Shown piece after piece: positions 1 to 64,000 of a DNA stretch of 64,000 bases; the stretch's first letter is position 1; every line of letters begins with the position of its first letter. Below the pieces are notes generated by a model. That model saw nothing but the letters and a program-made list of their open reading frames with translations, was not told where the DNA came from and did not search any database. Source of the stretch: Moniliella sp. 'wahieum'. Its lineage: Eukaryota > Basidiomycota > Moniliellomycetes > Moniliellales > Moniliellaceae. Location of the stretch: contig RSEE01000009.1 in the NCBI GenBank assembly GCA_003971905.1, positions 682,001 to 746,000 of the forward strand, written 5' to 3'. The position numbers and the translations under genes were made by a program.

Positions 1-3000
1 CAACCCGGCAACGCTGGCCAACCCACGGCCGCTGAGCGGCTGTTGGCAGCCTACCGTGCAGGCCTTCCTTTGCCTTCGGATTCTGTTCATTCGCTCGTGT
101 CTTCCACCCCTGGCGTCACACATCTGCCGTTGCTGCGGCGATCGCGGACCATGCCCAACTGGACAACTCAGACGCACAAGTGATGCAGTCTGCCTTTGAG
201 GATTCCTCCTCCATCGCCTCGGATGCTCTGACAGATGTAGTGGGAGCTGCCTCGGTGCACGGCCAAGGGCTTGGCTTTTGTGGTCCTGCGGGGGCATGGA
301 AGCAATCACTTCTCATGAACTTGTGCAAGCCCGCGCCCCCCGCTCAGCCCCCGCGTTCTCGTTCTCGCTTGGGCCTGCGCCCACGCCCAGCCTCCGCGTT
401 GGGGATCAGGGCCGAGAAGAACTTGGAAAACACGAGTTCGGACGCCAAGGCAGGCAAGGCGAAGCTGTCCTCTTTGGCAGGGCTACGCAAATACCGGAAC
501 AAGGGACCTCCTCCGTCGGCATCAGCCGCAGTTGCTGCTGCTGCGGTAGGAACCCCCTCCGCTTCCATGTTTGCTGCAGCCACGGGCAATGTGGCACCAA
601 CGGAGGCGTCTTCCGGACGCAAAATCGGACGTCGCCGGTCGTACTCCGCAGGGATCCTGGATATTGTTCGCCGCCCTGGGTCAGCAACTGGTTCTCGTCC
701 CACCTCAACAGCGCAGCCGGGCGAAGAGGTGGCTGGCAACGCGTCTCGCCCGCCGTCGCGGTCGGGATCGCGTCTGTCTAAGGTCGCTTCCTTGGTTGGG
801 TCTCGGCGACTGTCGCATGCCGCAAACCCCATCAGCTACCCCTCGGCCAATGTGGCGCACCCTGTCTCCGTCAGCTCCCATCTGGCGGCTTCGGCCGCCT
901 CGCAGGCGGCGGCGTCCGTGCATTCTGGTCGGGATGCTTCGGCTGCCACCTCGGCCGTTATGGATCCGTTCCCTTCTTCGTCGGACTGCTTGCCTCATGA
1001 AGACGATTCTGGGGTCGCGTCGAGCCGGAGATGGTCCCAGCTGACGAACCGGAGACAGGGACAGGTTCGAGTTCGTCTCAGATCCATCTCTCTCCGCGGA
1101 AGCGGTCAGGGAACCTTCCCCCATCACCTGTCGGTAGACAGTTTCCTGGTGTCTACCCTCTTCCGAGCATGACCCACCCCGATTCGCCTACCGTCCCCAG
1201 CTCGCTCGCGATGGCCTCAAGCACAGAGCGTCGCCCCGATTCCCCGACGGCTATGGCGACGCCTACGCCTCTCAGTCCCGTGCCGTCGTCGCGCTTGGGT
1301 CTGCAGGAGTCTGCGGTCTAGCAACGGGTACAGCAGTGCGCTTGAACCCACCTATTCCCTCGAGCCTCGGAACCAGCCCTTGTCCTATTCGACGCGGTGC
1401 CCTACGGCCCGACCACATTACCAATGCCGCGTCCCTTGTTCCGCCGCCGGATACGCTGTCTGGGCTGTCGCCGCGCCCGCGCAAGTTGAACACCGCGGGC
1501 CAGTCAGCCACCAGCTCGCTGGAGAGCGCTGGTTCTTCGGGTGGCGCCTCGGTTTCGGAGTCGGTGCCATCTCAGGAACAGACGAGCCCAGCCGACCGTC
1601 CGAGAAGCACTCGTGCTTCCATTGGCTCGGCCCCGCTGCTGTTGTGGCGCCGCGTTGGCGAGCGAGGTGGCAGCCTGGTGAGTCCACCACCTCGTCCCGC
1701 CACGGCCCCCGCTCTTCCCCTACGAGGGGTACGGTCAGCACAACGACCAGGTGGAGGAGCTGACTCCTGCGGCGCTACGGTTGCTAGAGGAAGTGTCCTC
1801 AAAGATCGTAGTTCGAGTTTGGCCTCCAGCCTCGCTTCTGCCGCGCTGGCCCGTCCTGGCAGCCAAGCGTCCGACGGCTCCGTCAGCGTGGTCCTATGCC
1901 TTGCGGATGCACCACAGCCATGATGGCCTTCCGGCCGTCTCGTCGCCGCTTGCCTCGTCCGAATCACGCCGTAGTTTGTCAGGGAGCCAGTCACGCCCCC
2001 GCAGCCGTGCCTTGGCTCTTACGGCGCCGCAGGCATCGTTTGCGCCTCGCACCACTTCCTTTGCATCATTTGATCAGAGATCCTCAACTCGGCCGCCAAC
2101 TCGGAGGCAGAGGTTGGCCCATCTACTGCACCCTCGAGCGCAATGCTCGCAACCCGTCCGCAGCCGTGACTCGTTCTTCTACCCCGCCGCTCTTGCTGCG
2201 CAGCTGTCGCCTCTAGCTCTTCTGTCCGTCTCTCGTCTCGGCAACACCACTCCTCCCTTCCTTCTTCGATCCGTGATTCGGGGAGGAAGAATTCGACCTA
2301 CGGGTCCTCGGAAGGGCGGGAGATCAGGTGCCCACGACGCCAGACGCCTTTTCTTCGCACCGTTCCTCTCTCATGTCCGGCTCGACGGACTGGGAAGTGG
2401 CGCTGTCGGACCCAGAAGCGGACGAAGAGTTGGTGCGGGAAGAGGAGCTGACCTCGCGCTCTTCCACCCCCCTGGCCTCTGGTTCAGCCTCAACGGGTGT
2501 GCCCCCCAGCCCATCCGGCTCAATGGGCTCCTTTGCTGCGGGTGCCTTCCGCTGGGATCCCTTGTGGAACAGCGCCGAGATGGGGGCGTCGTTGGCGGGT
2601 TCGGTGACTGGGTCGCTCCCTGGCATTCGCGCGTCATCTCGACCGACGATGGAGGGTGTGGTTTCAGTGGAAGGTATGGAGGGCGTTGTGTCTCTCGAAG
2701 GGGTGGAAGACGCGGAAGTCAGCACTGGTCCCCAGAGTCGGTGGAGGGGGAAACAACGGTTGTTCCGATGGAAGTTGACATGGTACGTGGTCCTCTCTTG
2801 TTTGGCTTTGGGCGGGAAGGTGTGCATTCGACAGCTAACTTGATGATGAACGTGCAGCCTTCTGCAACTGGGTTCTACAACTTGGCTGCCCCTTCACGCT
2901 CGATGGGTAACTTGTCGGCTGTCACGGCTGAGCGACCCCACGCGTGTCCTCAGCCGGGCGGGAACGGCCTGGTCGGAGGAGGACTCGGCGCCTGGCTCGC

Positions 3001-5067
3001 CCCGCTGTGTCCCCCTCGCCGTTTTATTCGGCCGAGAGCCTTTCGCGTTTCTCGTCTCCGGCACTCACACCGCGTTGGGCGCATGCCGCATTGCGTGCGT
3101 CCTCCTCCAGCTCCAACCCCCCTCGGCCCCAATTCAACTCAAGTCCCACCCGTCCCTTTGTGGCGGATGGTGTCCAAGCACGGGTGACGCCTAGACGGTC
3201 CATGCCCATCTTGGGCCGTTCCTCCACCTTGAACGGGGACCCATGCCGGCCGTAGCTGAGGTCTCTTCCACGTTGGCTCGCCCTTGAGCTCTGGGTCCCA
3301 CATTGCTCCCGCAACCCCGCCCCGCTCCTCTCTTCATAGCCACGTTCGTGCCTCTAGCGAGGGCAGTGCCTCTGTTCGCTGAAGCGCAGCAAGACCCGGT
3401 ACGCGGTCCATTGCGTTCGCTCCTAGCAGAAGCTGCGCCGGTCACCGTCCCCGCCTGGTCAACGAGCCGCCACGCGCCTCGGTGACCAAACGACCTGCGA
3501 CCGACATGGCGGGTCGTCGACCCATGCTTCTCCCCCTCACACTTTCGTCACGCGCAACCAGCCCGGCAGGTGCATCCGGGCGCGCTTCCTCTGCTGCCCT
3601 AGCCCGTGCTCTTCGTCGCTTTCTACGACGGCCAGTGCCGGGGAGCAGGCAGGGGCAATGGAGATCCGGCGGCGGCAAGCCCAGTCGGCGTTGGACCAGC
3701 GCTCGTTGGACGCTATGATGTCCCGTCCCTTGTCAGGGACACGGATGCGCTCGCCGTTGCCTGCATGGGGCACGTCGGGGGCGGCGGGACGCGCGTCGCG
3801 GGCTTCCTTGCCGCCGTCGGCACGGACTGCCTCGCGCGCTTCCAGCACCGAAGACGAGGTGGACATGCTGGCATTGCGCATGGCCGAGTGGTACGGGACG
3901 GGCGCGTATGTGTTCCAGCAGCGGCAGACGCAGCAAGGCCGCCGCCCGACCCGATCCGGTCGGGCTACCTTGACGTACCATCATTCGGCTGAGCCCGAGT
4001 CGGGCGTATCGGGTGGTCACGGGAGCGCCGTGGGCCGCGCACGCGGCTACCAATCCGACCAGGGCGCCGGCGCGCCCACGGATGCGGCGCTGTGGTCCGG
4101 TCCGTTAGGCAAGCGGTATTCCTTGCAGCAGGCCCCTCCGTCCACCGCCACCGCCCATGGCCGTCGCTGGTCCTCCGCCATGGGGCACGGGACGACAGGG
4201 ACAACGCTGCTGGGTTCGGCTGCGGGCGAGAAGGTTCCAGTGGGCAATGCGTTCTCCCATGCATCCAACGCGGCTGCCCGGCGCGCCTCGCTGCTCCCGC
4301 CGCGTGCCCGCAGTGCTACGCCCGCCAGCCGGGCTATGGATCGCGCGAGTATGTCGTCGGCGGGAAGTGCGCATGGAGGCCTGCTTCCCCTCACGCTCGT
4401 CCAAAGTACCGCCCCGCTGCAGCAGGCGCTGAGCCAGACTTTACTTGCCCACAATGCGCGGCGACACCGTATGAGTCTTTCGTTGCCTCCGTCGGCTGTT
4501 GCTTGCTGCGGCGGTCTCTGGTAGCGCCACACGCACTATCTCGACCCTCTCTCCCACGCCGGTGGTGTTGAGTGAGTCGGAGGCCTTCACCACCACACCG
4601 GCCACGACGCCTACGCAGTCCATGCGTGCCACTTCGGGCCCCATGACCGGCCATGGCTCGATGGGCTCTCTGGCTTCGCTTACCAGCCCCTCCCCTACCC
4701 CAGCCGCCCCGGGAGGCAACCTTTCTCCGATCAACACCACCACCCTTCCTTGCCCCACGCCCGGATCGGCAACATCTGCCACGCGCGTGTCTGCCCCTCC
4801 GTCCGCCTGGCGCGCGCTGAGAGACAACGAACCAAGCAAGGTGTCTACCTCTCCCTGCCTCCTTCTCTCGGGGTATCCGAAGCCAAGGAGGATACGGAAA
4901 CGGTGGCCGCATCTTCTGGGAAACCTTCGCCCTTGATCCCCTCTACGCCGTCCAACCCGGCGCTTGCTGCGGAGCAAGTGGCCGCCTCGGCCTCGGCCGC
5001 TGTCTTCCGCCGTCGGGCGGAGCGACAAGTCCGCCGTGCCTCGTTGCCCTACATTCCTTCCCTGTGA
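1..5067 (+). CDS. Ser/Pro/Arg-rich hypothetical protein, 5' end outside the window
   Basis: I do not recognise the family. Coding-like sequence runs across frames from the left edge to a stop at 5065-5067. It is rich in Ser, Ala, Pro and Arg, with blocks such as RRRSYSAG and SRPPSRSGSRLS, an acidic stretch near 2380-2450 and a Val/Glu-rich segment near 2650-2720. No folded domain is evident, so the protein is probably a disordered regulatory or scaffold protein. A good intron lies at 2783-2857 (GTACGT donor, CTAAC branch, CAG acceptor). The frame changes near 1040, 1330, 1750, 2330, 2745, 2940, 3650, 4500 and 4840, and composition continues smoothly across each change. That pattern suggests indels in a single gene rather than several genes. 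The start codon is not in the window. Confidence 0.5.
2783..2857 (+). other. Spliceosomal intron in the Ser-rich gene
   Basis: GTACGT donor at 2783, GCTAACTTGATG branch region near 2834 and GTGCAG acceptor ending at 2857. The length is 75 bp, a multiple of three, so it does not show up as an ORF break. Coding-like Ser/Ala-rich sequence resumes directly after it. Confidence 0.6.
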
Positions 5068-24203: not shown

Positions 24204-24281
24204 GGGGTTAGGCAAAATGAGTGTGGTGGCGCCGGGAAGAAGGGGGCGGCAGGAAGGGGCTGTGGGGGGAGGGGGGGATGT

Positions 24282-24362
24282 GGGGACGATGGGGACGATG
24301 GGGACGATGGGGACGATGGGGACGATGGGGACGATGGGGACGATGGGGACGATGGGGACGGT
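24282..24362 (+). repeat. 9-bp minisatellite, unit GGGGACGAT, 9 copies
   Basis: Eight identical 9-bp units followed by one variant (GGGGACGGT). It sits about 80-160 bp upstream of the glucanase start, so in its promoter or 5' leader. On the minus strand the unit reads ATCGTCCCC. Confidence 0.97.
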
Positions 24363-27087
24363 GGGCTAGGGAGGCTACGTGGGATGCGGATGAGCAGGCG
24401 GCGAGGGCAGGCCAGCGGGTGGGGGAGGCAATATGCTTTGGAAGCGGCCAGCAGGACGCGCAAGCCAAGGGTAGCGCCCAGGCTGCGCGCAGCAAGGCGG
24501 CCACTGCGCCACTGCCTGGCGCTGCCGCCTGGGGGTTGGATGCGCCCCAGTGCGCAGCCAGGCGCGCGTGGCGGGCCAGGGTGCTTCGGAGTCGGCCGTC
24601 CATATACTGGTGCACGGAGGCGTGCTGTGGCGGGCGCTCAGCTGAGCAGGCCAGGGTGCTGGGTGCTGCGTATGAGCTGCTTATTCTACGTCGCAGACGC
24701 TTCTGTCGCCCACCGAAGCACGCCGGCGGCCACACCAGGTGCGCAACGGCACAACGTATCCATCGTCTCGATCAGCCTCTGCCTCGGCAGCAGGCCAGCC
24801 GCTGTTCCTAGCCCAGCGCAGGCAGCCAGGCCAGGCCGTCAGGCAGGCTAGCAGGCCTAGCCAGCCAGCTCTACATGGCAAGCAGCCCGCCTCGCCACAA
24901 GAATGTACCCAACGCTGGAAGCGTTGACCGAGTACGACTCGGCAGTCCCCACTTGTGCCCAGCTACACTCCGTCCAATCCATCCGCACCTCCCCACGACC
25001 ATGCCCACTTTCTGACATGCGACGCCAGACCACGCATGGTGGCTGATGCGGCCGTGATCGACGGGATGCATGATGGAGGGTCTGACTAGCACCATTCGCG
25101 CGCGCGTGGGGTGCCGGTGGCAGGTGACATGGCACATGGGAGGCAGTGCAGGGGCAGTGTGGGTGGGCTGGCGGCGTAGGGGCAGTGGAAGAGCGCCGGC
25201 AGGGGTCCACCTGGGTCCACCCCGAGCATGGCATGCATCATGCACCATGCATCGTGCATCATGCATCGTGCGTGGGTTGGCCCCGCAGCGCGGTCTGCAT
25301 ACTGCCATGTGCCTGTTCCATGCAGCGTACTCCCTACTTGGCGCGAGGGGGTGGGCCTGAGGCTTGACATGCTGACAGGCAGTGCGAGTGCCTCGCTTAA
25401 CTGGCTTAATTGGCCACCACAACCGAACCAACCCGACCGTGCTTGCTTGGGTAAGCACGCACGTCTTTGTTGCATCCGTGCGCCCTCTCTGCACCAACTT
25501 GACGTGCAATCCAGTGCGTATATACGCAACAGGGAATGGGACGAGAGAGCCCCATCTTGTGCGTTTTCGCTCTGTGTTCGTTCCCTGTACTCGCACAGCG
25601 ACCTACGTCCCACCCTCCCCATCATCATGTCATGTGTCCTGTGCGCCATGAACTGCCCTCCCCTCCCCATCTAAGCACCGAGCAAAGGGGCACAGCAGGA
25701 TGCGAGGCCCCAAACCGCAGGGAAGACGAGCGTGCTATCCTACAGCTCCCCCTCCTTTTCCTCTTTCACCACTTTGGCACGAAAGAAACAAGCTCGATCG
25801 ATCCATCTCAACTAGCCATGTAAAAGTCGAGCGGCATCAACGTTCGACGTTCAACTGCTTCCGCTTATACGTGCCAGACAGGGGCCGTAGTGACAACAAG
25901 GGGATCGAGCCTCCGAAACCGAATCGTCATCATGAGCTTTTGCCTTGTTACCACTGCGGGTCCAGGCCCCCCAGTGAAGAACAAAGGGGTGGATCTACCC
26001 TTCGAACCATTCTGCACCTGTGGCCACCTCGTATCTTTTCTCCGTTGGGATTCTGTGCCATGCGGAGACCATCATACTGCCGCTTGCATTCGATCCGACT
26101 TGCCAACCCAGTCGATGCGACCCGCGCGCCAGGGCTGCCCTTGGTAGTCCACCACGGCCAACCGAGGCATCCGCCATCCTTCCTAACTTCAAACCTTGAT
26201 GGGTGCGGCCAGGTGTGGTGTGGGCAAGGCGTATGCACAGCAGTCGAGTGGCACCAGCACCATATCCCCGAGCGCTGGTGGCACCAACCATAGGACAACA
26301 CTGGCTTTGAGGCCAGGCACAGTATGATGCCATCCCGCGGTAACTAGTTCCCGTACCCCCCCTGTTCCCCCAGCCAAGACAGACCGTCGGGGCAAGCTCA
26401 GCCCAGCAGCCCAGCCTGGCTGCGCACACGCGAGCACTCTACTTCTGCCGTAACCCCACGCTTGCGGACCTGCGCCCACGTGGGTTCGCGAACGGTGGCT
26501 AGGCTGGGTTCCAAAACACCCCATCCGACGCCGCGCCACGCTGCCGTCCCAAACCACAACCGTGTGCTTCCTCACGGACCATCCCACATGCACCGAGGCA
26601 AAACCGGTTCAATGGAACTGCGATGGATGCTGCGGTGCAGCCAATGCGCCGGCACCATTGGGCGTGGGGATACAAGTCGAAGAAAGTCGAGGGCGATGGC
26701 AAGAGGGGTGAGCGCCGCCGTGGCTGTGGTCACTCTTGTTGGTGGGAACTGGTTTCTCGGATGGTGGGGGAACGGTGATTTTCACAGGGGGCTCGCTGCG
26801 AAACTACATCGTCTGCTTCCCTGGCCTGGTAGGTTCTGGCGCGGCTATAGCATCTGCGATTCGGGACTAGCTGCGCACCCCACCCAGCCTAGATACGGGA
26901 GGGAACTGGCGCAGCAGACTAGGAGCCTGGTGTGCCACCGTTCTGCCTACCTCGGGTTGGTCCCATGGTGTCGTCGGTCGCGCTGGGATAGAGAGGGATG
27001 GGCTTTTGTACGCATGGCAGTACGTTGGGGAGGGTAGGGAGGGGTAGGTGTAAGTACGAGGGCGGGCGGCTCGGGTCCGGCTCTGCT
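24363..27087. other. Long intergenic region, about 2.7 kb
   Basis: I find no gene. Many short ORFs overlap on both strands with no domain. It holds the glucanase promoter at the left end, the 3' UTR of the RBAP48 gene at the right, and a short ATGCATC heptamer array near 25231. Confidence 0.45.
25231..25274 (+). repeat. Heptamer array, unit ATGCATC (palindrome ATGCAT + C)
   Basis: About six consecutive 7-bp units (ATGCATC, ATGCACC, ATGCATC, GTGCATC, ATGCATC, GTGCGTG). Same design as the arrays at the right end of the window. Confidence 0.8.
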
Positions 27088-40383: not shown

Positions 40384-40419
40384 GTACGTTCAACGTTCAA
40401 CGTTCAACGTTCAACGTGC
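40384..40419 (+). repeat. Heptamer array, unit GTTCAAC, 4 copies
   Basis: GTTCAAC is an odd palindrome (GTT-C-AAC). The array is preceded by AACGTAC and ends with GTGCAC. Confidence 0.9.
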
Positions 40420-41960: not shown

Positions 41961-41994
41961 GCGTGACGCGTGACGCGTGACGCGTGACGCGTGC
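41961..41994 (+). repeat. Heptamer array, unit GACGCGT, about 4 copies
   Basis: ACGCGT palindrome plus one G, reiterated without interruption. Confidence 0.92.
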
Positions 41995-53561: not shown

Positions 53562-56364
53562 CTAGAACGATACTGTAGGATAGTCGCCAGGCCCAGATAC
53601 AGGAAGGCGGCCGTAAAGCGGGGTAAATAGGTCCTCCATCGGCGACGTGTCGCTGAGCGTGACTGCCGGCAGCGTTGATGCGGGCAGAGGCAGTGCTTCC
53701 CCCCTACCCCCTTGGCCAATCGGCATGGGAGATTGAGAAATGATAGAGGCCCTTCGGGTGGAAGTGGTCTCTTCTTCTGGCAATGCCACGGGGGGCATCG
53801 GGGTGGAGTGGAAACTGAAGTCGCGTAAGCTGTCTGATAGAGCTGTACTCGTGGGGTGGGCAAGGGAAAGAGCGAATGGCTCGATCCTCGGTCGTTCGCC
53901 TGACCTAAAAATCGAGGCGGCGATCCAAAAGGGGTGGTGGAAAGGGGTGAAGGGGATGAGCCCAACTGGAAGTCCGACATGGCCCTTGACAGAGGGAGCG
54001 GTTGTTTCTCTTCTTCTCGCGGGGTTTGGAGGAATGGAATGGGCGTGGTGGGCAAACTGCTGCCGTCCAAGGGAGACGCCATTGCTCGTTCAGGGCGCAA
54101 AGACCAAAGACCCTCTGCACCTTCTGGATGTAGGCCGTTGGAACTAGGCAAGCTGAGCCCTGACGATTGCTGCGTCGCAGCCATACCGATCCCAGCACCC
54201 ATCAAGTACTCCATTGGTTTGGGTGAGATGGACAGGCGGGATGGGTAGCTTGTCGGCGGCTGATAGTCCCGTGTCACATTTGACAACGTCCGCTTGCGCA
54301 ATAGGGTTGGCATCGCCTGCAAGTGAGCCTGGGGCGATAAGTGCAGTGAGGGGTCTGAAGGCGGCGAGAGGAGGCCAGCATGCAGATGCCCCTGCACCGA
54401 GAGCGAATGGGATTGGTTCTGCCCGGGTCTCTCCAGCGGATCTAGCCCACTGGCGATCGACGTAGACTGCGAGGGTTCCGGCGCACTGGACGACGGAGGG
54501 ATAGATAGGGCATACCGTCAAAAGACGGCATACCCTGCATTGGCAAATTCAGCGACAACGCGTTAGACGACGACACTGAGACAGCCATGTCGGGCGCTCC
54601 TGGGGCAAAGAGGGGAGGCGCGGGCAAGAGTTGCTGGTATTTTATAGGGTATGAAGCCGTGGGCAAAGCACTGGTCATTGTTTGTGTTGTATCCATCGAA
54701 CCATGTAGCCCGTTAGCACGCGCTGTCGTAGGCCGCGTGAGAAGAGAGATGCGTGCTGCAGGTGAGGACTGCGACGGGGTGGGTTCCATGCACTCAAGGT
54801 CCCAAGCCAGAACAAGTTGCACCGTGCCCACTTTCTGACCAGATGAAAGCTCGTCGTCTCCCTCCGACACCTTGTTGCACGATTGGGGAAGCATTGGTTC
54901 ATTGGCCACGACAAATTCTTGGATCAGCGAGATGCCAGCAACGGCCATTGCAAGGGCAGCGCGTTCGCTTGGTTCTTTGCCAAAAGTTGCTGATTCATTG
55001 GGCTTCTGGTAGTTGACGGGATGGTTCCGACTCAACAAGTCGGCCCAAAAGTCGGTGGCAAAGGGGGCATAGTGCATGTAGGAATACTGAGGAGCTCCTT
55101 CGCCTGCCTTGTCCGTGATCGACTGAGTGGAGATGTGTCTGGGATGATCCAGGGGCTCAATGAGAGAAAGAATGCGTTTACCATGGGAAAAGACAGTGGT
55201 AACGGATGTGAGCCGGCGCGAATCGGTGCTGCTGATAGTCAGCTGGGTGCTGAACTGGTCGAAGTCAGGAAGAAAAACGTCGGCCTGCGGGATACTGAGG
55301 GGGCGTAGATGTGCAGGAAGGGGCAAGACATTCGGTCGAACATGTGGAGCAACTGGGGAAACCGGACTTGGCCCAAATGTATTGTGTCGATACTCTTGCT
55401 CCCGCCAATCAGGCTGGTGCAGGGAACAGCACCGGGATCCATGGTAGTGTACATGTGCCGATTCTCACTGTCGCTGCAGTGAACCCACATAGAAAAGCTC
55501 GAGGGGATCATGTGTGGCATTTGGTCCGGCGGGGGAGGCGCAGTGACGGTAGGGTCCGTAAAACGAGTAACGTTGCCCTTGATCGTTTCGGTCACGTTTT
55601 CCCAGCCCGGAACACCGTATGGGCCACTCAGGCCGCCGTACCCTGAACTAGCCAGCGTAAGAGCATACATCATCCCACCCGCCGGCACATAGAAGTCATC
55701 TTCGGAACGTGGTTCGGCGATGAGGTGCAGAAACTCAACGTCATCTTTACGTACATTCTTGAGGACTTGGATGTGGCTCGACACCTGCTTGCGCGTGCGT
55801 TGTTTGCCAGTCTTGCGATGGATGTAGTCAGCAATGAGCTCGTTGCGCCCACAGGCCTTGCCATGCACCAACACTTTGCGTCTCCCAAGTTTGGGGATGA
55901 ATCGAAGCGCTGGTAAATATAAAAAAGTAAAGGTCAATGGTGAGTCTACAAAAGACAGCGGAGAAACACTCTGTTCGTTACTTACCCTCCCAAAACGCCA
56001 CTTCAACATCGTCAGGCCATACATCCGTGTTCTTCGCAATCGTACCCTTGCTGGACGCTGACTTAATAGGGGTACTATTAGGCGTCGTTTGGTCCGGCAG
56101 ATTAGGTTGCGAAGGTGGAACGGTAGAGCCCCCCTCAGAAGTAGTAGGATCCACTTGGGTGGATGACGCAGGGTCAGGGGCACGGAGGGGGGTGCTTGGA
56201 CCAGGCTCGGATTTTCCGTCGGGGGGTTGGAGAGATGATGTGGATGAGCTGACCGTGGGGGCGAAGGCATCTTCCAAGCTACTGGTGCTGGTACTGGGAG
56301 TGACCCCTGCCGTATCGACGGAAGCATGGGTGCGCCGGCGCTTATGGGTCGTGGCAGCCCTCAT
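53562..56364 (-). CDS. TEA/ATTS-domain transcription factor
   Basis: DNA-binding regulator of the TEF-1/AbaA/Tec1 family. The start is chosen at [17 protein letters not shown] (56364), a basic segment followed by a Ser/Thr/Pro-rich linker. Exon 1 ends [12 protein letters not shown]; the intron is 55910-55985 (GTAAGT...ACCAG). Exon 2 continues [40 protein letters not shown] and [20 protein letters not shown]. This is a complete three-helix TEA domain including the recognition helix with [10 protein letters not shown]. The following region ([69 protein letters not shown]) resembles the beta-rich C-terminal cofactor-binding domain of the family. The tail is Ser/Pro-rich to the stop at 53562. Breaks lie near 55320, 54500, 54250 and 53800. 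The exact targets are unknown; relatives control development and filamentation. Confidence 0.93.
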
Positions 56365-57508
56365 AGTCAGGTCGGGGTCGAGGCTGAGGTCGAGCTGAGG
56401 GCCGGAGCGGCTGGGGCGTCCGGCACAGCTTCCTGGGTAAGGGCAGACGAGGGAGAAGGCGATATGTGGGCAGCAAGGCAGAAAGGAGGTCCTGGGGGCG
56501 TGGCCGCTTGTGCAGGCGGCGCAGAAGCTGTGGTTGCAGCGGGATCCGATGACGGCAGCCACGGTTCAGGCATAGCAGCGGCAGGCGGGGGGCTGGGAAA
56601 AGGGAGCGTTGGCGGTGAACGCTGAGCGTTGGCAGTGCCGTGGGGGAGAGGGGAGGCGGTAAGACGACGAGCCACGAGAGGGAAGCGATGGAGGTGGAGC
56701 AGAGGAGGCAGGGGAGGCACACAGAGAGGGGACCGCAGACGGAGCAGACGGGGGAGGGGGCAGAGAAGGAGCGGTTATTAATTATTGCTGCAATGGCCGA
56801 GCTGGGTTGTGCCGCTACTCCCTGCCGCCCAGTGCTGCACCCGCGCAGGCCAGCGCTCTGCAACACCCGGCGACTATGCTGCGTGCATGGAGGTCACCGG
56901 TCACCGATAGTGGGGAACGGGGGTCGATTGATCATATTGATGGCAGATGGCAGATGGCTGACCGGCATCCACTATATCCACACTGCACCCGAGTTGCAGC
57001 GGGTGAATATGGTGAATGGTGTCCAAGAGGAAAGCACGGCGCCACTTTGGGTGCCCGGTAGCAGCGGCCAGTGTCCTGGTGGCTGGAGGCGAGCCGGTGG
57101 TGACCGATGATCCGGTGAAATATGGTCGATGAGGTCGATGATGTGGATGATGCACGACGCGTGACGTGTGATATACGATACAATTGTCTCTGGTGGGACG
57201 CGTGGCGCACGACCGGTACGTGTAGCTGCCCCGCAGGGTGCAGTCTGAGATCTGTTGAGATCTAAGGTCTGGATCTGACCTCCATCTAGCCTTCCCTGTG
57301 CCTTCCCTCTTGAAGCTCTTGAAGAGCTTGCTTGACGCTCCTGAAGCTCTTAAGCTTGAAGCTCTTCAAGACGAAGAAGCTGCAATGTCCAACGCCACTT
57401 TCAGGCCAAAGCGTCACAGGCCACAGTAACCTGTCGACATCCTGCATTGCTTATTGTTTTTACTACCAATCGTCCTGCCGTTGATTAGAGCCAAACAACG
57501 GTCACATC

Positions 57509-57533
57509 GCCACTAGTCACTAGTCACTAACCA
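57509..57533 (+). repeat. ACTAGTC heptamer array, about 3 copies
   Basis: ACTAGT palindrome plus C. A second, looser set lies at 57855-57930. Confidence 0.8.
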
Positions 57534-57723
57534 AGAGCTGGAGACGGAGCCTGAGGTAGGCCTGAGGCCTGAGGGCCTGACGCGTGACGGAGCCCGATGG
57601 CCGACTGCATTTGGGGCGTACGCTGGCGTACTTTGGTTGCTGCGATGCGGTGGGTGTGGATCATCGATCAGCTCTGAGCCTGAGCGCTCAGGCCGAGCGT
57701 TCATCGTGACGCGTGACGCGTGT

Positions 57724-57783
57724 GAAGCTTGAAGCTTGAAGCTTGAAGCTTGAAGCTTGAAGCTTGAAGCTCTTGAAGCTTGA
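57724..57783 (+). repeat. GAAGCTT heptamer array, about 8 copies
   Basis: AAGCTT palindrome plus G, about seven tandem units and a terminal TCTTGAAGCTTGAA variant. It is immediately preceded by GACGCGTGACGCGTG, i.e. two units of another heptamer. Confidence 0.95.
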
Positions 57784-57794
57784 ACGGGAATGTT

Positions 57795-57845
57795 CAAGTT
57801 GAACGTTGAACGTTGAACGTTGAACTTCAACTCAACGTTCAAACG
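57795..57845 (+). repeat. GTTGAAC heptamer array with an inverted copy
   Basis: Three GTTGAAC units in tandem, flanked on both sides by the opposite-strand form GTTCAA/TTCAACTC. This could form a short cruciform. Confidence 0.85.
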
Positions 57846-58309
57846 TTCACACAGTCACTGGTCACTAGCTCCTGTAGTCACTAGTAACTAGCCACTCTAG
57901 TCACTAGTCACTAGTCCCCTAGTCCCTAGTCAATGTGTTCCCGTTTAACAATGGTCGAACGCAGTACAGAGCGTTTGAATCAATCGAATCGATGAATGGA
58001 AATGGGCATAACATGTAACAATACTAATTGATCATTGAATATGGATCCTCGATAATAGCGGAAATGGACCATGGTGCATGGAAGAGCAGCGCATGTGACG
58101 CGCTGGTACGGTAGTAGGTACAGTGACGCAGACAGGCAATGGCCCGTCGACCCCTGCGCGTTGCGCGTTGCGTTCATGCACATTGGACCCAGCCGGCTGT
58201 TCCAGCGCAAAGCTTAAAGCTTAACGCCTAGCGCTGAACGTAAGCTTTCAGGCCCTAACACTTACAATTTAACGCTTTTAAAGCTCACCAAATCGTGTCA
58301 GGACCACAG

Positions 58310-58334
58310 TACCAGTACCAGTACCAGTACTCCG
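58310..58334 (+). repeat. CAGTAC hexamer array, 4 copies
   Basis: Four uninterrupted CAGTAC units, sharing GTAC with many nearby words. Confidence 0.9.
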
Positions 58335-58876
58335 TGCCAATATTCAATCGACATCGATCAGGTGGAAGTTATCCCTGGGATCTCATCGATCTCATCCTAT
58401 ACATCCTATCTCAGTCCGATCATCGGTACTTCGGGGTACAAAACATGTTACAATCATCGATCATCATTAGTATGGAGTGTCTCACGTTCAGTACGTAGTT
58501 CAGTAGTCAACCTGAGTACTCAGTTACTCAACTCCTCAATACACCCAACGTTCAGTGTTCAACCTCAGTGCTCCTCGGTACTCGATACTCTGTGTACTCA
58601 ACCTCAGGCCTCAACGTCAGTCCTCACGATATACCCAACCCAGTAACTAGCTTGCCTCGTAACCGTCATGGATCTTGAGGGCCTCAGGCTGAGGACTCGT
58701 ACCGGTGTCGGTACCACCAAGTACTCGTATAATACGCAACACCCAGTACACTCAGTATTCAGTGGCCTGGGCCTGACCCTCAGGCCTCAGGCTGAGGCCT
58801 GACCGGCTGACCTCGGGCCCTCAGGGAGGGATTTGAACTTTGGGCCTGGTGCAAAGAAGGCTGGAAGCAGGACTAT

Positions 58877-58900
58877 CGGTCACCGGTCACCGGTCACCAG
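58877..58900 (+). repeat. GGTCACC heptamer array, 3 copies
   Basis: GGTCACC is an odd palindrome (GGT-C-ACC) repeated three times. Confidence 0.9.
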
Positions 58901-59231
58901 CGAATGATCAGGCAATCATTTAATGACACATGAAGCGCTCAGACTGAGCGCGCGGGATCCAGTCCCAGCAGTATATACTGACGGAGATGTACTGCTAGTC
59001 CACAACTTTTTTTTGTTTTGGATTCTTTTTGAGGCTCAGGCTGAGCGCTCAGGTTGGGTACTCAGGTACTCAGTACTCAGTGGGTACTCCGTCTGAGAAA
59101 TGTGAGATCTGAGGCCCTGAGAGGCCCGAGGCCTGAGGCCCTGAGGCACAAGGCGCTCAGCTCAGGCCTGAGGACTCTCAGTCCGAGTAGTCACGTCGTC
59201 ACAATCATTTGTGAGTTGTGACATGTGAGCA

Positions 59232-59283
59232 TGGTAACCGGTAACCGGTAACCGGTAACGCGTAACGCGTAACGCATAACGTT
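59232..59283 (+). repeat. GGTAACC array passing into GCGTAAC array
   Basis: Four GGTAACC units followed without a gap by three GCGTAAC/GCATAAC units. One heptamer appears to change into another while keeping the 7-bp register. Confidence 0.92.
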
Positions 59284-59379
59284 TACTAGTTCCGTTCCTA
59301 GTTAGTTACTAGTTACTAGTAACTGTCGTGACGCGTGATGTGTGATGTATGTGATTATTATTCGCCGTCTTAATCATCC

Positions 59380-59455
59380 CACTATACTCTGTACCGACAG
59401 AGCTTAAGCTGGGACGAAGAAACGCTGCGCCTAAACCGACCAGCCTTTCCTGCTT
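59380..59455 (+). repeat. Dispersed repeat family R, left-part copy A
   Basis: Contains GACAGAGCTTAAGCTGGGAC, then GAAACGC and GCCTAAACCGACC, in the same order as at 61785 and 63660. Upstream and downstream flanks diverge. Confidence 0.75.
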
Positions 59456-59977
59456 GTGGAAGCGGGTCGGGGTGGTGGTGGGGACGGTCGCTTGTGGACG
59501 TTGGAGGAATTCTGTGGGCGCAGTGGGGAGTCGGAGGGAAGGAAGAGCAAGAGAAGGGGACAAGGGATTGTGCGTATATATATGTAGGGCAAGGAGGCTA
59601 GATCTCTAGCTCTCTCTCCACATCTGTGGGTACGCGGGTGTGGGAGGCGAATGATGTTGTAGTCTTAGATCTCAACACAAGTGGGTCGGAACCCTGGCAT
59701 TGGCCAACCCCAAAAGCTCTATATTATAGCACTGAAGCTATGAAGGAGGTCAATAAATCCCCGGAACGGAGCCCATGCGCTTTCCATTGCATGTCGCAAC
59801 AGGTCAGCCCGTGTGTTTTACACTGCTTGCCTGTTTTTGCCGCCACTACGAATGAGCTGCGCACACTATCGGCTTCAAGCTTCAACAGATTCATGATTTC
59901 CACGGTTCCTTCGTATCGATATATTCCTTCGTATCCACTTTTTGCAGCTTTTCAACTCAACGCCAGGCCTGAACGCC

Positions 59978-60010
59978 TGAACGTTGAACGTTGAACGTTG
60001 AACGTTGAAC
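59978..60010 (+). repeat. GTTGAAC heptamer array, 4 copies
   Basis: Same unit as at 57795 and, on the other strand, 40384. Confidence 0.92.
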
Positions 60011-60348
60011 TACTCTATCGACGATTCTTCTCCACTATACATTTCTGTGGAGGCAAGTGATTACAGTGGCTACTCTTTTAGTATAGCTATCTGCCTATAG
60101 GCCTACTCTTCTTCGACGCAACATAGTAGCTGGCATAAAACGCAAAACCAGAGACCAATATTCTATTCATGGGACCTACGCCTTTTCTCTCAAAGCAATA
60201 TTGAGACGTTCGCCCCTTTTGCTATTCACGCGCTCATCGCCTTCTGCCCCACATTCTCCAAGCCAAGCCTTCTGTCCGCGTCACCGGTCATTCTTCAAGT
60301 CACCTGATGCACCTGTTGCATGGTAGCCTAGTTTTCCTCTGTTCGTTT

Positions 60349-60394
60349 GACATGTGACATGTGACATGTGACATGTGGCATGTGACATGTGACA
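60349..60394 (+). repeat. ACATGTG heptamer array, about 6 copies
   Basis: ACATGT palindrome plus G; one unit has the variant GCATGTG. Confidence 0.93.
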
Positions 60395-60682
60395 AGCGTC
60401 CACTTTATATATTCAGTAGTGCTGCCATCTGCATCACCAGGCCGAACCGGGGACCGGAGAGTCCAGTCAGAGACCAGGGGGTGGTACGATTATTCATGTG
60501 GATGAGGAAACAGCAGCAGGGTGTGGACATTGGACTTAGAACAAAAAAGGTGGCTTATGAAAAAAGAGGGACAACACAGAAGAAGAGCAACACCTTTGTC
60601 TCCAGGGAATCGGAGTGTGCGAGACACGGGAGCCTGTGCCTTAGTGGTACTTGGAGTGGGATACAGTAGGACACAATCTAAG

Positions 60683-60742
60683 GGTAACCGGTAACCGGTA
60701 ACCGGTAATCGGTAATCGATCGGTAATCGAGTATCGAGTACT
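60683..60742 (+). repeat. GGTAACC to GGTAATC heptamer array
   Basis: Three GGTAACC units drift into GGTAATC units and then GATCGGTAATCGAGTATCGAGTA, again mostly in 7-bp register. Confidence 0.88.
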
Positions 60743-61064
60743 GCCAAATGGAGAAGTACTGAGACCGATGAAACGTGTGAGACGTGTACTATGGCTCGGA
60801 AGAAGGCGTTGTATCCCGATTAAATCTGTGGGACGCATCCCGTATATGCGTCTTTGATAGGCCCCATTATCCGTCCCAATTGCTGTTCCGATGGAAAACA
60901 AGGTGAAATACTATATGGGCCATCTCCTCCAATGGACCAAATGTACTGCCACACCACACCACTCTCCTCGTTGCTGGCTTCTTGATCTCTCCCTTTTGCT
61001 TCTCTCACGCCCTTGTCCTAAGGCCCTCTAGGATCTGATTGCGTATAGATAGTATTCACTGACC

Positions 61065-61165
61065 TTGGTGGCGCTTCCAAGTAACCCCCGCAAGATGAAC
61101 GGTTCGGTTTAGACGTAGCGTTTCCCCTGTCCAGCCTTAAGCTCTGTCAATGAAATGGACGTGGT
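61065..61165 (-). repeat. Dispersed repeat family R, inverted copy B
   Basis: Read on the minus strand it gives CATTGACAGAGCTTAAGGCT, then ACAGGGGAAACGC, CTAAACCGA, CCGTTCATCTTGCG and a GGAAGCGCCACC end. This closely matches 63670-63755 on the plus strand. Confidence 0.82.
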
Positions 61166-61513
61166 CTAGAGAAAGGACCTCAATCTCATTGACGGCCAAT
61201 CCTTATCGACATTCACTATCATTATTCGAGTTTGCATCATCAGGTCATGAAACTACTATCAGTGCATTTAGTATTTAGCCTCTCATCGGTCACCAGACGC
61301 GGCTCGTCGCGCTCATCGTGCGTTTGTGGCTACTGAGGTCCCTTCACTCTCTCCCTCCCGAAGCCTGTATATAGGAGCTCCGAGATGTTTTCGCGCTTTT
61401 ATTTTCTGAGTGGGGCCCCCGGGCTCATACCACCACGCACCACCAATCGCTATAGGGCAATACCACCACCCTCAAGAGGGCTCTCAGAATCTCATACCTC
61501 AGGTTACTCTCAT

Positions 61514-61632
61514 GAAGCTTGAAGGACCTCAAGCTTCAGCGCTTCGAACTACAAGCTTCAACCTTCAAGCCCTTCAAGCTTCAAGCCTTCAAGCTTCAAG
61601 CCCTTCAATCTTGAAGCTAATAGCTTGAAGGG
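61514..61632 (+). repeat. AAGCTTC/AAGCTTGAA-rich cluster
   Basis: A dense run of AAGCTT words separated by CAA, CAACC, GAAGG and similar, more degraded than the 57724 array. Both strand orientations of the unit are present. Confidence 0.8.
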
Positions 61633-61777
61633 TCAGAACCCAGATCTCAGGCTATAGGCCGGTCAGGCCATCATGCATAGGTCTCAGGACCCCATTTACC
61701 AGTTACCGGCCTTACCCACCTTCCCTCCCTTTAACTTTTCAGTCCACAAAAGAAACATCTCTGTAGCTGTATCTCTC

Positions 61778-61860
61778 TTGTGCATCCATATCATTGACAG
61801 GGCTTAAGGCTGGGACTGGGAAACGTTACTTCTAAACCGACCCGGAGGACCTTGTGATTT
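61778..61860 (+). repeat. Dispersed repeat family R, copy C
   Basis: GCATCCATATCATTGACAGG, then GCTTAAGGCTGGGACTGGGAAACG and CTAAACCGACCC, matching 63658-63722 over the same extent. Confidence 0.8.
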
Positions 61861-62779
61861 GCAAATTACGCAGAGAGTTGCGCGTCTACACGTCTACGTG
61901 CGCGTAACGCGTAACGCTTGGTGCATGCAATGGTGTGCGTGACGCGTGACGGTGTCTTACTAGCACTCGCGTCACGCGTCACTCGTCACTGTTAACGCGC
62001 TGACGGGACAACATCGAATACTGACAATGGCAAAGTGCAAAACACTCTCAACGTTCAAAACACTCTCCCGAAGAGGGTTTTGGTGTGTCCCTTTATCAAG
62101 TAACGCGTATAATGCGCGTAAATTGTAACACCGTCGTCTTCGGGATATATACTACCTGCTACCGCTTATCCCCTCATTAATCATCACACATGTCGCATGC
62201 ATTATTGCCAAAACTCTCCTCAGACTGTTTGCTGTGGATGACGCCGATATGATAATAGTAGCCTGTGGGCAGTAGTGACATCATTGAAGCAACAGTCGCA
62301 TTTTAGTGATATCAAAATGACCGACAACAGCGGCTCAGGCAGGCGACCATACGCAATGACTCTAGTGACTGCAGGATCTCATCGCCAAGCCCGGGGCCGA
62401 CGCGGTATTTGTTATAGATACCTCAGGACGTGCGTGATAGCTCTTCTCGGTGACGGTCATTAGATTGATCCGAAAGTCCAGAGCCGCGTAACGGGGGGAT
62501 GTACATGTAATCCGCGGGAATTCGAAAGGGATAGAAAGATGAGTTTTTCAGAGTATCTTTCTATTTTTCTTCCTCGCGGCGTTACAACGGTGCAATGGTT
62601 CTTTCGTCTTCCCCGGTCATGCATCATGCATCATGGGATTATAGGGTCACCCACCACACAATGACGACTGTGTTGTTCCTATTTAATTTCCTTTGTGGAG
62701 AGCGATACCATACTATTCCTCTCCGGTCTCTCACTTGTATATATATCCTTCTCGTCTTGTCCGCGCCAAGCCAATTATT

Positions 62780-63045
62780 AAACCAGTGGAGTCGCCAGCA
62801 GGTCAGGACCCTCTATTGGTGCCTGCCATTCCCTTCCCCACCGGATGTACTAGCACGTGAGAATGAGAGAGGTATAATATAGATAGGCATATTGTGAGCG
62901 ACGGTGAACGTTGAACCATCTCCAAGGCTCATCATGCATCACCCGACGACGGTTTTTCAGCCCCCATACAGGTTATTGGCTGTCTTCGTGGCATAGTATC
63001 CGTGCGTCGTCATGACCAAGGGGAATAAAGCTTGAAGACTCTTCA
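62780..63045 (+). repeat. Dispersed repeat family R, right-part copy
   Basis: Shares AACCAG, TCGCCAG, TCAGGACCCTCT, GAACCAT, then GCTGTCTT, TAGTATCC, GCGTCGTCA and ACCA with 63765-63975, in the same order. Confidence 0.7.
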
Positions 63046-63060
63046 GCGTGCCCCTGGTGC

Positions 63061-63288
63061 TTGACATTCTTGTCGCATTTCACTTGTTCCAACAGTCATC
63101 GAAGTAACTCCAACTCGTTATTGTACCGGCATTTCAAAAGACGTTACGGTTCCCTCGTGTACCACCTTCCGGTACGCAATCGTCGCCTCGAGTCCTTTGT
63201 GCCCGGATCATGCAAAATTAAGATATGGTTCACTCCTATTCCTGATCCTCCAAAGGCTCTAGGTCCCAACATCACTCGATCGCTATAA
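63061..63288 (+). other. Small ORF of unknown status between two repeat copies
   Basis: A 75-codon open frame from MTFLSHFTC to a stop at 63288, with CKIKIWFTPIPDPPKALGPN near its end. It could be a remnant of a mobile-element protein or chance. No domain recognised. Confidence 0.2.
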
Positions 63289-63654
63289 TATTCTGTGATG
63301 TACGCCTCAGCGCCTGTCGCCCATGCCTCTCGTCTCTCGTCTTCCTCTGGACCGTAGACTCGTTATATTGTACATATATCAGTGTCCGTGTTGATGAGCA
63401 GTGTGTAACGATGGGGGGCGGTGAAAAGGTGAATCATGAGATGGAATAAAACTGTAGACAACGGAACGGTGGGACAGTGGACAATGGGACGATGGAGCAG
63501 TGGCCCAGCGCCCAATATAAGCCGGACCGTGGGCCCTGTAGTCTGCTATTAGTTTACTATCTCAGAAAGGCTGTAGTACTGAGAGGTGGAAAGGTTCCCA
63601 ATATCTCGCTGGAGCTGGACCGAACAAGCCAAAAAGAAAATGACTTTTTTGCTA

Positions 63655-64000
63655 CTCTGCATCCACATATCATTGACAGAGCTTAAAGCTGGGACAGGGG
63701 AAACGCCACGCCTAAACCGACCCGTTCATCTTGCGTGTTTGCTTGGTAGCGCCACCCCTGTTAGGGAACCAGGGGGATCGCCAGGATATCAGGACCCTCT
63801 GGTTCTCGCCATCCGGTCCCGTACCCTAGGAAGCGCGTGTGGACACGAATGAACGTGGTTGACATCCGAGCGAGGAACCATTTCCATTGAGACTGAGTAG
63901 CCAAATCCTCCCAATGCGCAAACATCTTGCCCGCTGTCTTGGTGCCGTAGTATCCTCTCGCGTCGTCAAAACCAGGGGGAAAAACGGCTCTTGAGTGCGT
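63655..64000 (+). repeat. Dispersed repeat family R, most complete copy D (runs off the window)
   Basis: Carries both the left part (ATTGACAGAGCTTAAAGCTG ... CTAAACCGACCC) and the right part (TCAGGACCCTCT ... GTAGTATCCTCTCGCGTCGT ... GGCTCTTGAGTGCGT), so the other copies look like fragments of this unit. It reaches at least the last base of the window. Confidence 0.78.

Follow-up and report, generated by a model that had tools for sequence, protein, structure and literature searches.

The window analyzed here is a 64,000-nucleotide stretch of the Moniliella sp. 'wahieum' genome (contig RSEE01000009.1, C9:682001-746000), which displays tandem arrays of palindromic 7-bp units and a related 12-bp sequence, termed the scar, in which a site is directly repeated and the two bases in the middle are reverse-complementary to those beside them. 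The genome assembly comprises 69.5 Mb in 223 contigs, and about 0.36 Mb or less of this was sampled overall. Most counts refer to the window or to one of three sets: 200 kb (the arbitrary 10-kb stretches L009-L028), 264 kb (the window and 20 arbitrary 10-kb stretches) and 314 kb (the window and L009-L033). The 314-kb set includes the array-rich window DNA, which was chosen for its arrays, and its homologue L033. A domain scan in four frames shows TEA, Sec7, WD40 and DUF1765 domains of eukaryotic type in the window genes. The open reading frame with the TEA/ATTS domain (window positions 55239–56327, minus strand) directly adjoins the stretch that is rich in scars.

The sequence-only reading of the window had described 7-bp tandem arrays with palindromic units, and counts in the window and in 264 kb show these to be real. 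The window has 30 exact period-7 arrays of at least 16 bp, 20 of them with a palindromic unit, and all 10 arrays of at least 21 bp are palindromic. In 264 kb the unit is palindromic in 27 of 41 period-7 arrays of at least 18 bp, where the chance value for random heptamers is ~11%. Palindromic units are absent at period 5 (0/12), period 8 (0/5) and period 9 (0/9) in this sample; they occur at period 3 (53/123), period 4 (9/16) and period 6 (4/39) because short units are palindromic more easily. The self-repeat effect of palindromic units is not seen at periods 5 and 9. Non-palindromic period-7 arrays exist as well (97 of 197 runs of at least 14 bp). The sequence-only reading had named a missing excess of palindromic units over other heptamers as grounds for abandoning its idea; the excess is present in the part of the genome read. 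At a different period, an array built on TGGGGACGA (24281–24365, period 9, 9.4 copies) is non-palindromic and is apparently unrelated to the heptamers.

The array positions first listed agree with a recount, except that the array near 25231 is degenerate (CATCATG-like, 25232–25271, repeat scan). The period-7 array scan shows GTTCAAC at 40386–40417, CGTGACG at 57705–57722 and CTTGAAG at 57723–57771, as well as three copies of GGTAACC followed by GGTAATC at 60683–60718. A second CGTGACG array lies at 41961–41993, and a 20-mer of its unit is found at 201 places in the genome, the reversed spelling at 0. Two tandem copies of CGTGACG are listed at 61938–61951.

The units had been divided into two designs, a 6-bp palindrome plus one base and an odd 7-bp palindrome. 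These are one class, xyzNz'y'x', since tandem copies of a 6-bp palindrome plus one base include an odd 7-bp palindrome. The palindromic unit is xyTNAy'x', with T-N-A at the centre and xy nearly free. TNA is the centre in all 32 palindromic arrays of at least 17 bp in 264 kb (54 period-7 arrays are that long, the other 22 being non-palindromic). Thus the proposal that palindromic heptamers expand irrespective of sequence does not hold, the TNA centre being near-absolute, while the view of a process acting on many different units, rather than one ancestral satellite, is borne out. That the arrays are fixed parts of one transposon family, another way in which that view could have failed, is not borne out either: when two array-rich window stretches were searched against 288 kb, the matches found at arrays stop near them and the flanks are not shared.

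The TNA centre bears on the first alternative to be considered, pure replication slippage of hairpin-stabilized heptamers with nothing cut. In this view self-complementary heptamers would slip more easily, as CNG triplets do. CNG repeats resemble these arrays in that the tandem unit is symmetric about a single free base, but they consist of a fixed unit grown by slippage, and are not known to have 12-bp scars or the TNA rule. Palindromic heptamers with other centres almost never repeat. A palindromic heptamer is followed by its own copy in 24 of 604 cases for TNA in 200 kb, as against 0/573 for ANT, 0/997 for CNG and 0/946 for GNC (0/2,516 together); in 314 kb the counts are 101/1,138 for TNA (overlapping tandem copies counted; 79 without overlaps) as against 0/877, 1/1,540 and 0/1,490 (1/3,907 together). 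These other heptamers are nevertheless judged to fold at least as well as those with TNA.

The elementary object is the 12-bp scar, xyTNA-y'x'-xyTNA, and not the array; the arrays are the tail of a larger scar class. The largest numerical excess of exact period-7 runs over the controls is at a length of 12 bp, with 88 TNA runs compared to 6, 8 and 4 for other centres. Sixty-four of the 88 are in one phase (0,5), i.e. xyTNA-y'x'-xyTNA, and the three controls together have 5 in this phase. In 314 kb there are 66 isolated 12-bp scars, 5 of which were found in both a stretch and its homologue. Examples in the window are CGTCA-CG-CGTCA (57578–57589, minus strand, 12 bp) and GATCA-TC-GATCA (57659–57670, plus strand), both within a 117-bp stretch missing from the homologue; CCTCA-GG-CCTCA (58602–58613, plus strand) and CGTGA-CG-CGTGA (59327–59338, plus strand), both common to the homologue; CATCA-TG-CATCA (62930–62941, plus strand), one substitution apart from the homologue; and TGTTA-CA-TGTTA (58009–58020, minus strand), where the homologue is 9 bp shorter and the case is not clean. 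The 66 isolated scars display 14 of the 16 xy pairs and all four N. So nearly free a unit is unfit for a single protein, which argues against the sites being kept by selection as binding sites for a heptad-reading protein.

To classify the junctions, every pair of equal cores 7 bp apart was tabulated for 12 cores in 314 kb. For TNA there are 78 left-type junctions (xyTNA-y'x'-xyTNA), 62 of the mirror right-type and 101 perfect palindromic tandems; the 11 control cores give 1–5, 1–7 and 0–3, respectively. The corresponding numbers in 200 kb are 40, 32 and 24 for TNA; 1, 2 and 0 for ANT; 3, 0 and 0 for CNG; and 4, 1 and 0 for GNC. An order-2 Markov control predicts 0.35 TNA junctions in the latter set where 96 are seen, whereas for the control cores seen and predicted values are 3 and 0.75 (ANT), 3 and 2.85 (CNG), and 5 and 3.2 (GNC). 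The density of TNA junctions is 0.48 per kb in arbitrary stretches and 7.3 per kb in the last 7.7 kb of the window. Extrapolation from 0.48 per kb gives ~33,000 scar junctions genome-wide, with array units counted more than once.

The length of the repeated site was obtained from joints with gap bases. Counted on both strands, the repeat continues in 23 of 35 cases with one gap base and, for both bases, in 27 of 46 cases with two; with three gap bases it continued for all three in 0 of 7. Since continuation stops at 7 bp, the duplicated site is 7 bp, xyTNAzw (NNTNANN), and is symmetric about N. The left copy is shortened by 2, 1 or 0 bases. A 2-nt insert after 5 retained bases is found 342 times, compared to 2–13 times in 7 control cores; 3-nt inserts after 5, 6 and 7 retained bases number 8, 5 and 0.

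Two patterns were counted in the whole genome. DGTTNAACGTTNAB yields 1,241 matches, compared to 79 for its reversed spelling, and HTCTNAGATCTNAH yields 1,814, compared to 2. Spelled in reverse, each pattern keeps its structure but has an ANT core; the reversed form of HTCTNAGATCTNAH, however, contains TCTAGA and may be rare for reasons of its own. Of the first 100 matches listed for each pattern, 80 and 89, respectively, have the same base at both N, where ~25 are expected by chance. Thus the repeat is a direct duplication and not a fold-back. Two marks of a hAT7-type scar are present, a 7-bp direct repeat and a palindromic (P) insert, here the 2-nt reverse complement of the repeat edge.

The arrays had been said to avoid the genes. 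As a rough rule this is true of the junctions: of 241 TNA scar junctions, 12 fall within stop-to-stop frames of at least 250 codons, which occupy 37.9% of positions. Avoidance of long reading frames is expected for 7-bp insertions; a location mostly outside such frames would also suit protein binding sites.

Three of five query stretches have a diverged second copy elsewhere in the assembly, and this makes a comparison of alleles possible. The pairs are window positions 56000–64000 with L033 (contig C18), part of L022 with L054 (C19), and part of L028 with L055 (C22), with identities over aligned columns of 0.953, 0.936 and 0.956. The L018 query gave no full-length homologue and the L011 query is a repeat, so that neither was usable. 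Second copies that are ~94–96% identical over aligned columns suggest that the genome is diploid, dikaryotic or hybrid.

The comparison of window positions 56000–64000 with C18 covers 40 scar places. Twenty-two are identical, as selected binding sites might be, but 18 differ, and binding sites for a heptad-reading protein are considered very improbable. One clean case is the scar TGTGA-CA-TGTGA before GC (59217–59228, plus strand), where C18 has TGTGA-GC only and the unscarred site is non-palindromic. At window position 58548 it is C18 that carries the scar, GTTCAAT-AC-GTTCAAT, and the window shows the non-palindromic GTTCAGT; the 9 bp are a full 7-bp copy plus 2. At L022 position 3549, TAAAC-GT-TAAAC corresponds to a single TAAAC in C19, again a non-palindromic site, and the next bases, GT, also permit reading it as a plain tandem step. 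Two palindromes, GATGATC (57105) and GATCATC (58417), have one copy at these window positions and two in C18. The unscarred homologous site is thus non-palindromic in three of these five selected small differences and palindromic in two. The earlier idea of a process that expands palindromes is incomplete, since the palindromes are at least partly made by the event itself. The direction of each allelic difference, i.e. scars gained and not lost, would follow from parsimony without an outgroup, which counts against the interpretation given below.

Array lengths differ by whole units between the homologues. GGTCACC is present three times at 58877–58898 and five times in C18, GTTGAAC four times at 57798–57825 and not at all in C18, and CGTAACG twice at 61903–61916 and three times in the homologue. 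The two AGTCACT arrays (57511–57529, 19 bp, and 57897–57916) are each 7 bp longer than in the homologue, AGTTACT (59303–59320) is one unit shorter, and the TGTGACA array at 60348–60394, which has one interruption, shows a 7-bp difference. Such whole-unit changes in copy number are shared with classical micro- or minisatellites, in which, however, the sequence of the unit is unconstrained; here TNA centres repeat and other palindromic centres do not. Differences of 7 bp are also what pure slippage would give. No prior repeat is needed, on the other hand, for scars isolated in single-copy sequence, for those at non-palindromic sites or for the 9-bp form, and slippage as the whole explanation appears unlikely.

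Indel lengths in the three alignments show peaks at 7 (15), 9 (8) and 14 bp (6). The remaining indels are 210 of 1–5 bp, 8 of 6 bp, 3 of 8 bp, 1 of 10 bp, 2 of 12 bp, 4 of 13 bp and 11 longer ones. Many other differences between homologues are not clean, being single substitutions or messy stretches. In the C18 copy a 36-bp insertion (L033, ~3114–3150) contains a period-8 array built on GTTCACGC, beside a TNA scar; it is possibly a variant of the process.

The path from scar to array can be stated as a rule. A first event at xyTNAzw would give xyTNAy'x'-xyTNAzw, with a run length of 12 = 7 + 5. A second event on the palindromic heptamer would give a perfect tandem copy, so that lengths of 12, 19, 26, 33 and 40 bp (7n+5) are expected. 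Palindromic arrays would thus be a fixed point, since the same reaction on a palindromic heptamer returns an exact copy. The TNA runs number 88 at 12 bp, 10 at 19 bp, 2 at 26 bp and 2 at 33 bp, and there is one 40-bp array (L028, 5666). In the window the GTTGAAC array at 59978–60010 (33 bp, period-7 array scan) and the CATCATG array at 62617–62635 (19 bp, array scan and homologue alignment) have lengths of 7n+5 and begin at TNA. Other lengths are also found (33 runs of 13 bp, 46 of 14–16 bp, 10 of 17 bp and 5 of 21 bp), as expected from chance one-base extension, palindromic founders and slippage. The edges of 49 arrays (n = 98, including the array-selected stretches L001-L008) fall 27 times at the unit boundary and 20 times at TNA, where 14 are expected per position of seven; a third peak of 20 lies one base past the unit boundary, where chance extension adds.

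Left- and right-type events on one founder would leave two palindromic units flanking a non-palindromic heptamer, i.e. an in-register switch of the kind to which the sequence-only reading had drawn attention. The array at 59233–59275 fits this: GGTAACC changes through GGTAACG to CGTAACG, and the non-palindromic GGTAACG may be the founder. Both unit types around one non-palindromic heptamer are found at 4 of 11,625 TNA cores (the 59233 array, one in L018 and two in L033) and at 0 of 61,592 control cores. A simulation with the scar rule alone produces TNA-palindromic arrays of such lengths, and in this model the one rule therefore suffices; when events cluster, a few of the simulated arrays exceed the longest one observed.

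The scars are probably excision scars of a DNA transposon that makes a 7-bp target duplication and leaves hairpin-ended breaks, which are opened 2 nt from the tip. The scar structure comes from counts, whereas the transposon as agent, the hairpin step and the gain of scars are inferred. A short direct repeat combined with a mirror insert is a hallmark of transposons whose departure leaves chromosome breaks with hairpin ends. A cut-and-paste element (or its transposase) with an NNTNANN target would leave xyTNAzw duplicated on both flanks. On its departure both chromosome ends would be closed as fully paired hairpins, and a hairpin opener would cut 2 nt 3' of the tip at each end, giving a 4-nt 3' overhang on each. 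One end would keep and fill its 2-nt mirror overhang and the other would be trimmed by 2 nt, less often by 1 or 0. The joint would be xyTNA-y'x'-xyTNAzw or, from the other side, xyTNAzw-w'z'-TNAzw; filling of one overhang and flush trimming of the other would account for exactly the two mirror classes observed. The scar contains the palindromic heptamer xyTNAy'x', at which a repeated reaction would give an exact 7-bp tandem copy. Ordinary slippage would then alter copy number, and it probably adds to the growth of long arrays. Hairpins and repair were among the causes guessed from the sequence, and both appear as steps here.

The Ac/Ds target duplication is 8 bp, compared to 7 bp in the scars. 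Components of the proposed reaction have been described in other systems. Artemis favours opening of hairpins at 2 nt from their tip, and V(D)J coding joints resemble the scars in their even palindromic P insert, which averages 2 nt; they differ in belonging to a vertebrate immune process without a 7-bp target duplication (PMC3528771). hAT elements such as Ac/Ds leave scars derived from hairpins, as proposed here, and in Candida, Saccharomyces and plants these carry a short palindromic insert at the joint, formed via hairpins and end joining (PMC5873905). As described in that source, the Ac/Ds inverted repeats are centred on a complemented base and 28 different scars occurred in 128 clones, whereas here the centre is even and one scar type and its mirror predominate (PMC5873905). 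Target duplications of 7 bp are made in fungi by hAT7 of rust fungi and by Kyakuja (KDZ) of mushrooms (PMC12730594). The likeness to Kyakuja lies in the scar, the element itself not having been seen here, and the KDZ domain search is without a match; the scars of Kyakuja are not described in the available part of the source; for hAT7, no hAT domain is above cut-off here, and the available part of the source describes neither a TNA consensus nor scar arrays (PMC12730594). A literature search for such arrays or this scar type gave no prior description that was recognized among the entries listed; one paper returned concerns, in the part available, mononucleotide palindromes in mitochondria and is unrelated (PMC7218506).

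Several results weigh against an excised transposon as the source of the scars. No element flanked by NNTNANN duplications was recognized in 288 kb or in 338 kb, and candidate pairs in the 338-kb scan (2 of 4,821 TNA pairs) are within the rate of other cores. None of the 9 indels of at least 18 bp in the three homologue alignments is such an insertion, judged by reading of their ends. A profile search with PF05699 (hAT) gave nothing over the cut-off and two sub-threshold hits, and one with PF18758 (KDZ) gave no match; the control genomes were silent in both searches, so that absence is not proved. The scars are even-centred, y'x'|xy, with almost always 2 nt on exactly one side, where described hAT scars vary, and joints with both mirror inserts number 0. 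Plain non-palindromic duplication is as frequent as in controls in 314 kb (18.9 per 10,000 cores, controls 15.9–20.2), while in 200 kb it is somewhat more frequent (20.5 per 10,000, controls 8.0–12.4). Joints in which a full left copy is followed by a 1-nt insert number 23, compared to 3–11 in controls, and 13 of the 23 are also readable as the 2-nt form. Finally, a 4-bp palindrome without a matching flank lies between TNAs 31 times, within the raw control range of 9–40 but per core 2–5 times the value of three palindromic control cores; these may be scars that have decayed, or may expose a weak point of the model. Loose ends from this per-core recount led to a slightly lowered confidence in the transposon.

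Scans for terminal repeats with target duplications show no excess of 7-bp TNA duplications (among the matches listed for one scan). The Ac/Ds rule, an insert centred on the complement of the element-adjacent base, was not found, its 1-nt classes (7 and 2) being within the raw control range. Two other origins of the joint are disfavoured. Element ends left behind do not fit the main classes, which need a matching flank, and are a possible minor source for the flankless 4-bp palindromes. A simple staggered cut with fill-in should leave plain duplications, of which there are 22 in 314 kb with 18–64 in controls (yet somewhat above control per core in 200 kb).

The same cut and repair could proceed in the absence of any mobile element. 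A domesticated transposase, or a nuclease that forms hairpins, would cut NNTNANN directly, for example in programmed DNA removal or in a mating or meiotic process, with mirror-insert joining leaving the scars. Such a system, independent of any present element, would have a RAG- or hAT-like hairpin-making enzyme, possibly domesticated, and an opener fixed at 2 nt. It would suit scars that are very common while no element with a matching target duplication was recognized in the sequence read, and that are more uniform than the hAT scars described in print (PMC5873905). However, a 7-bp direct repeat is what target duplication gives, and a staggered cut should yield many plain 7-bp duplications, which are seen at or only somewhat above control level. 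Cutting free of an element is considered rather unlikely; if true, a cut-and-mirror enzyme has left tens of thousands of uniform scars and has turned non-palindromic DNA into palindromic arrays.

Candidate elements were also inspected one by one. The PF05699 sub-threshold hit on contig C13, the one of the two that was examined, is spurious by reading and sits in an unrelated coding frame. Window positions 56906–58877 (~2 kb) have a 6-bp inverted repeat, GATAGT/ACTATC, at their ends, and GGTCACC arrays lie outside both ends (GGTCACC twice at 56892–56905, the same in L033, and the array beginning at 58877), an arrangement also found in the homologue. This segment may be an element carrying the target duplication that the model predicts, or the arrangement may be due to chance; it is given as a lead only. 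An element with long inverted repeats and diverged ends extends from window position 63652 to L029:3547 (C9:745652-749547), and positions 63640–63860 have at least 42 matches, itself and its other end included. It was rejected as the agent, as the family shows no 7-bp duplication (ends from 20 copies; one paired copy). L011 positions 3000–3900 (C3) are present in six copies at 100% (rounded, query included) on different contigs, with many more at 81–91%, and are a recently active repeat. DNA ~1.8 kb upstream is also common to the five other copies. This family was likewise rejected as the agent: in the five further copies retrieved, the repeat runs on past the presumed left end, and a single right end is without a target duplication.

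The excision of a transposon from TNA-centred sites, if correct, predicts that an element or a domesticated enzyme is to be found. It would represent a route to simple-sequence arrays in which the array is not a product of slippage but of a cutting reaction that yields an improved copy of the substrate on which it acts. The scars would make double-strand-break repair legible in a natural genome, with tens of thousands of events on record and end processing visible in bulk: the hairpin opened at 2 nt from its tip, one overhang retained and the other trimmed.

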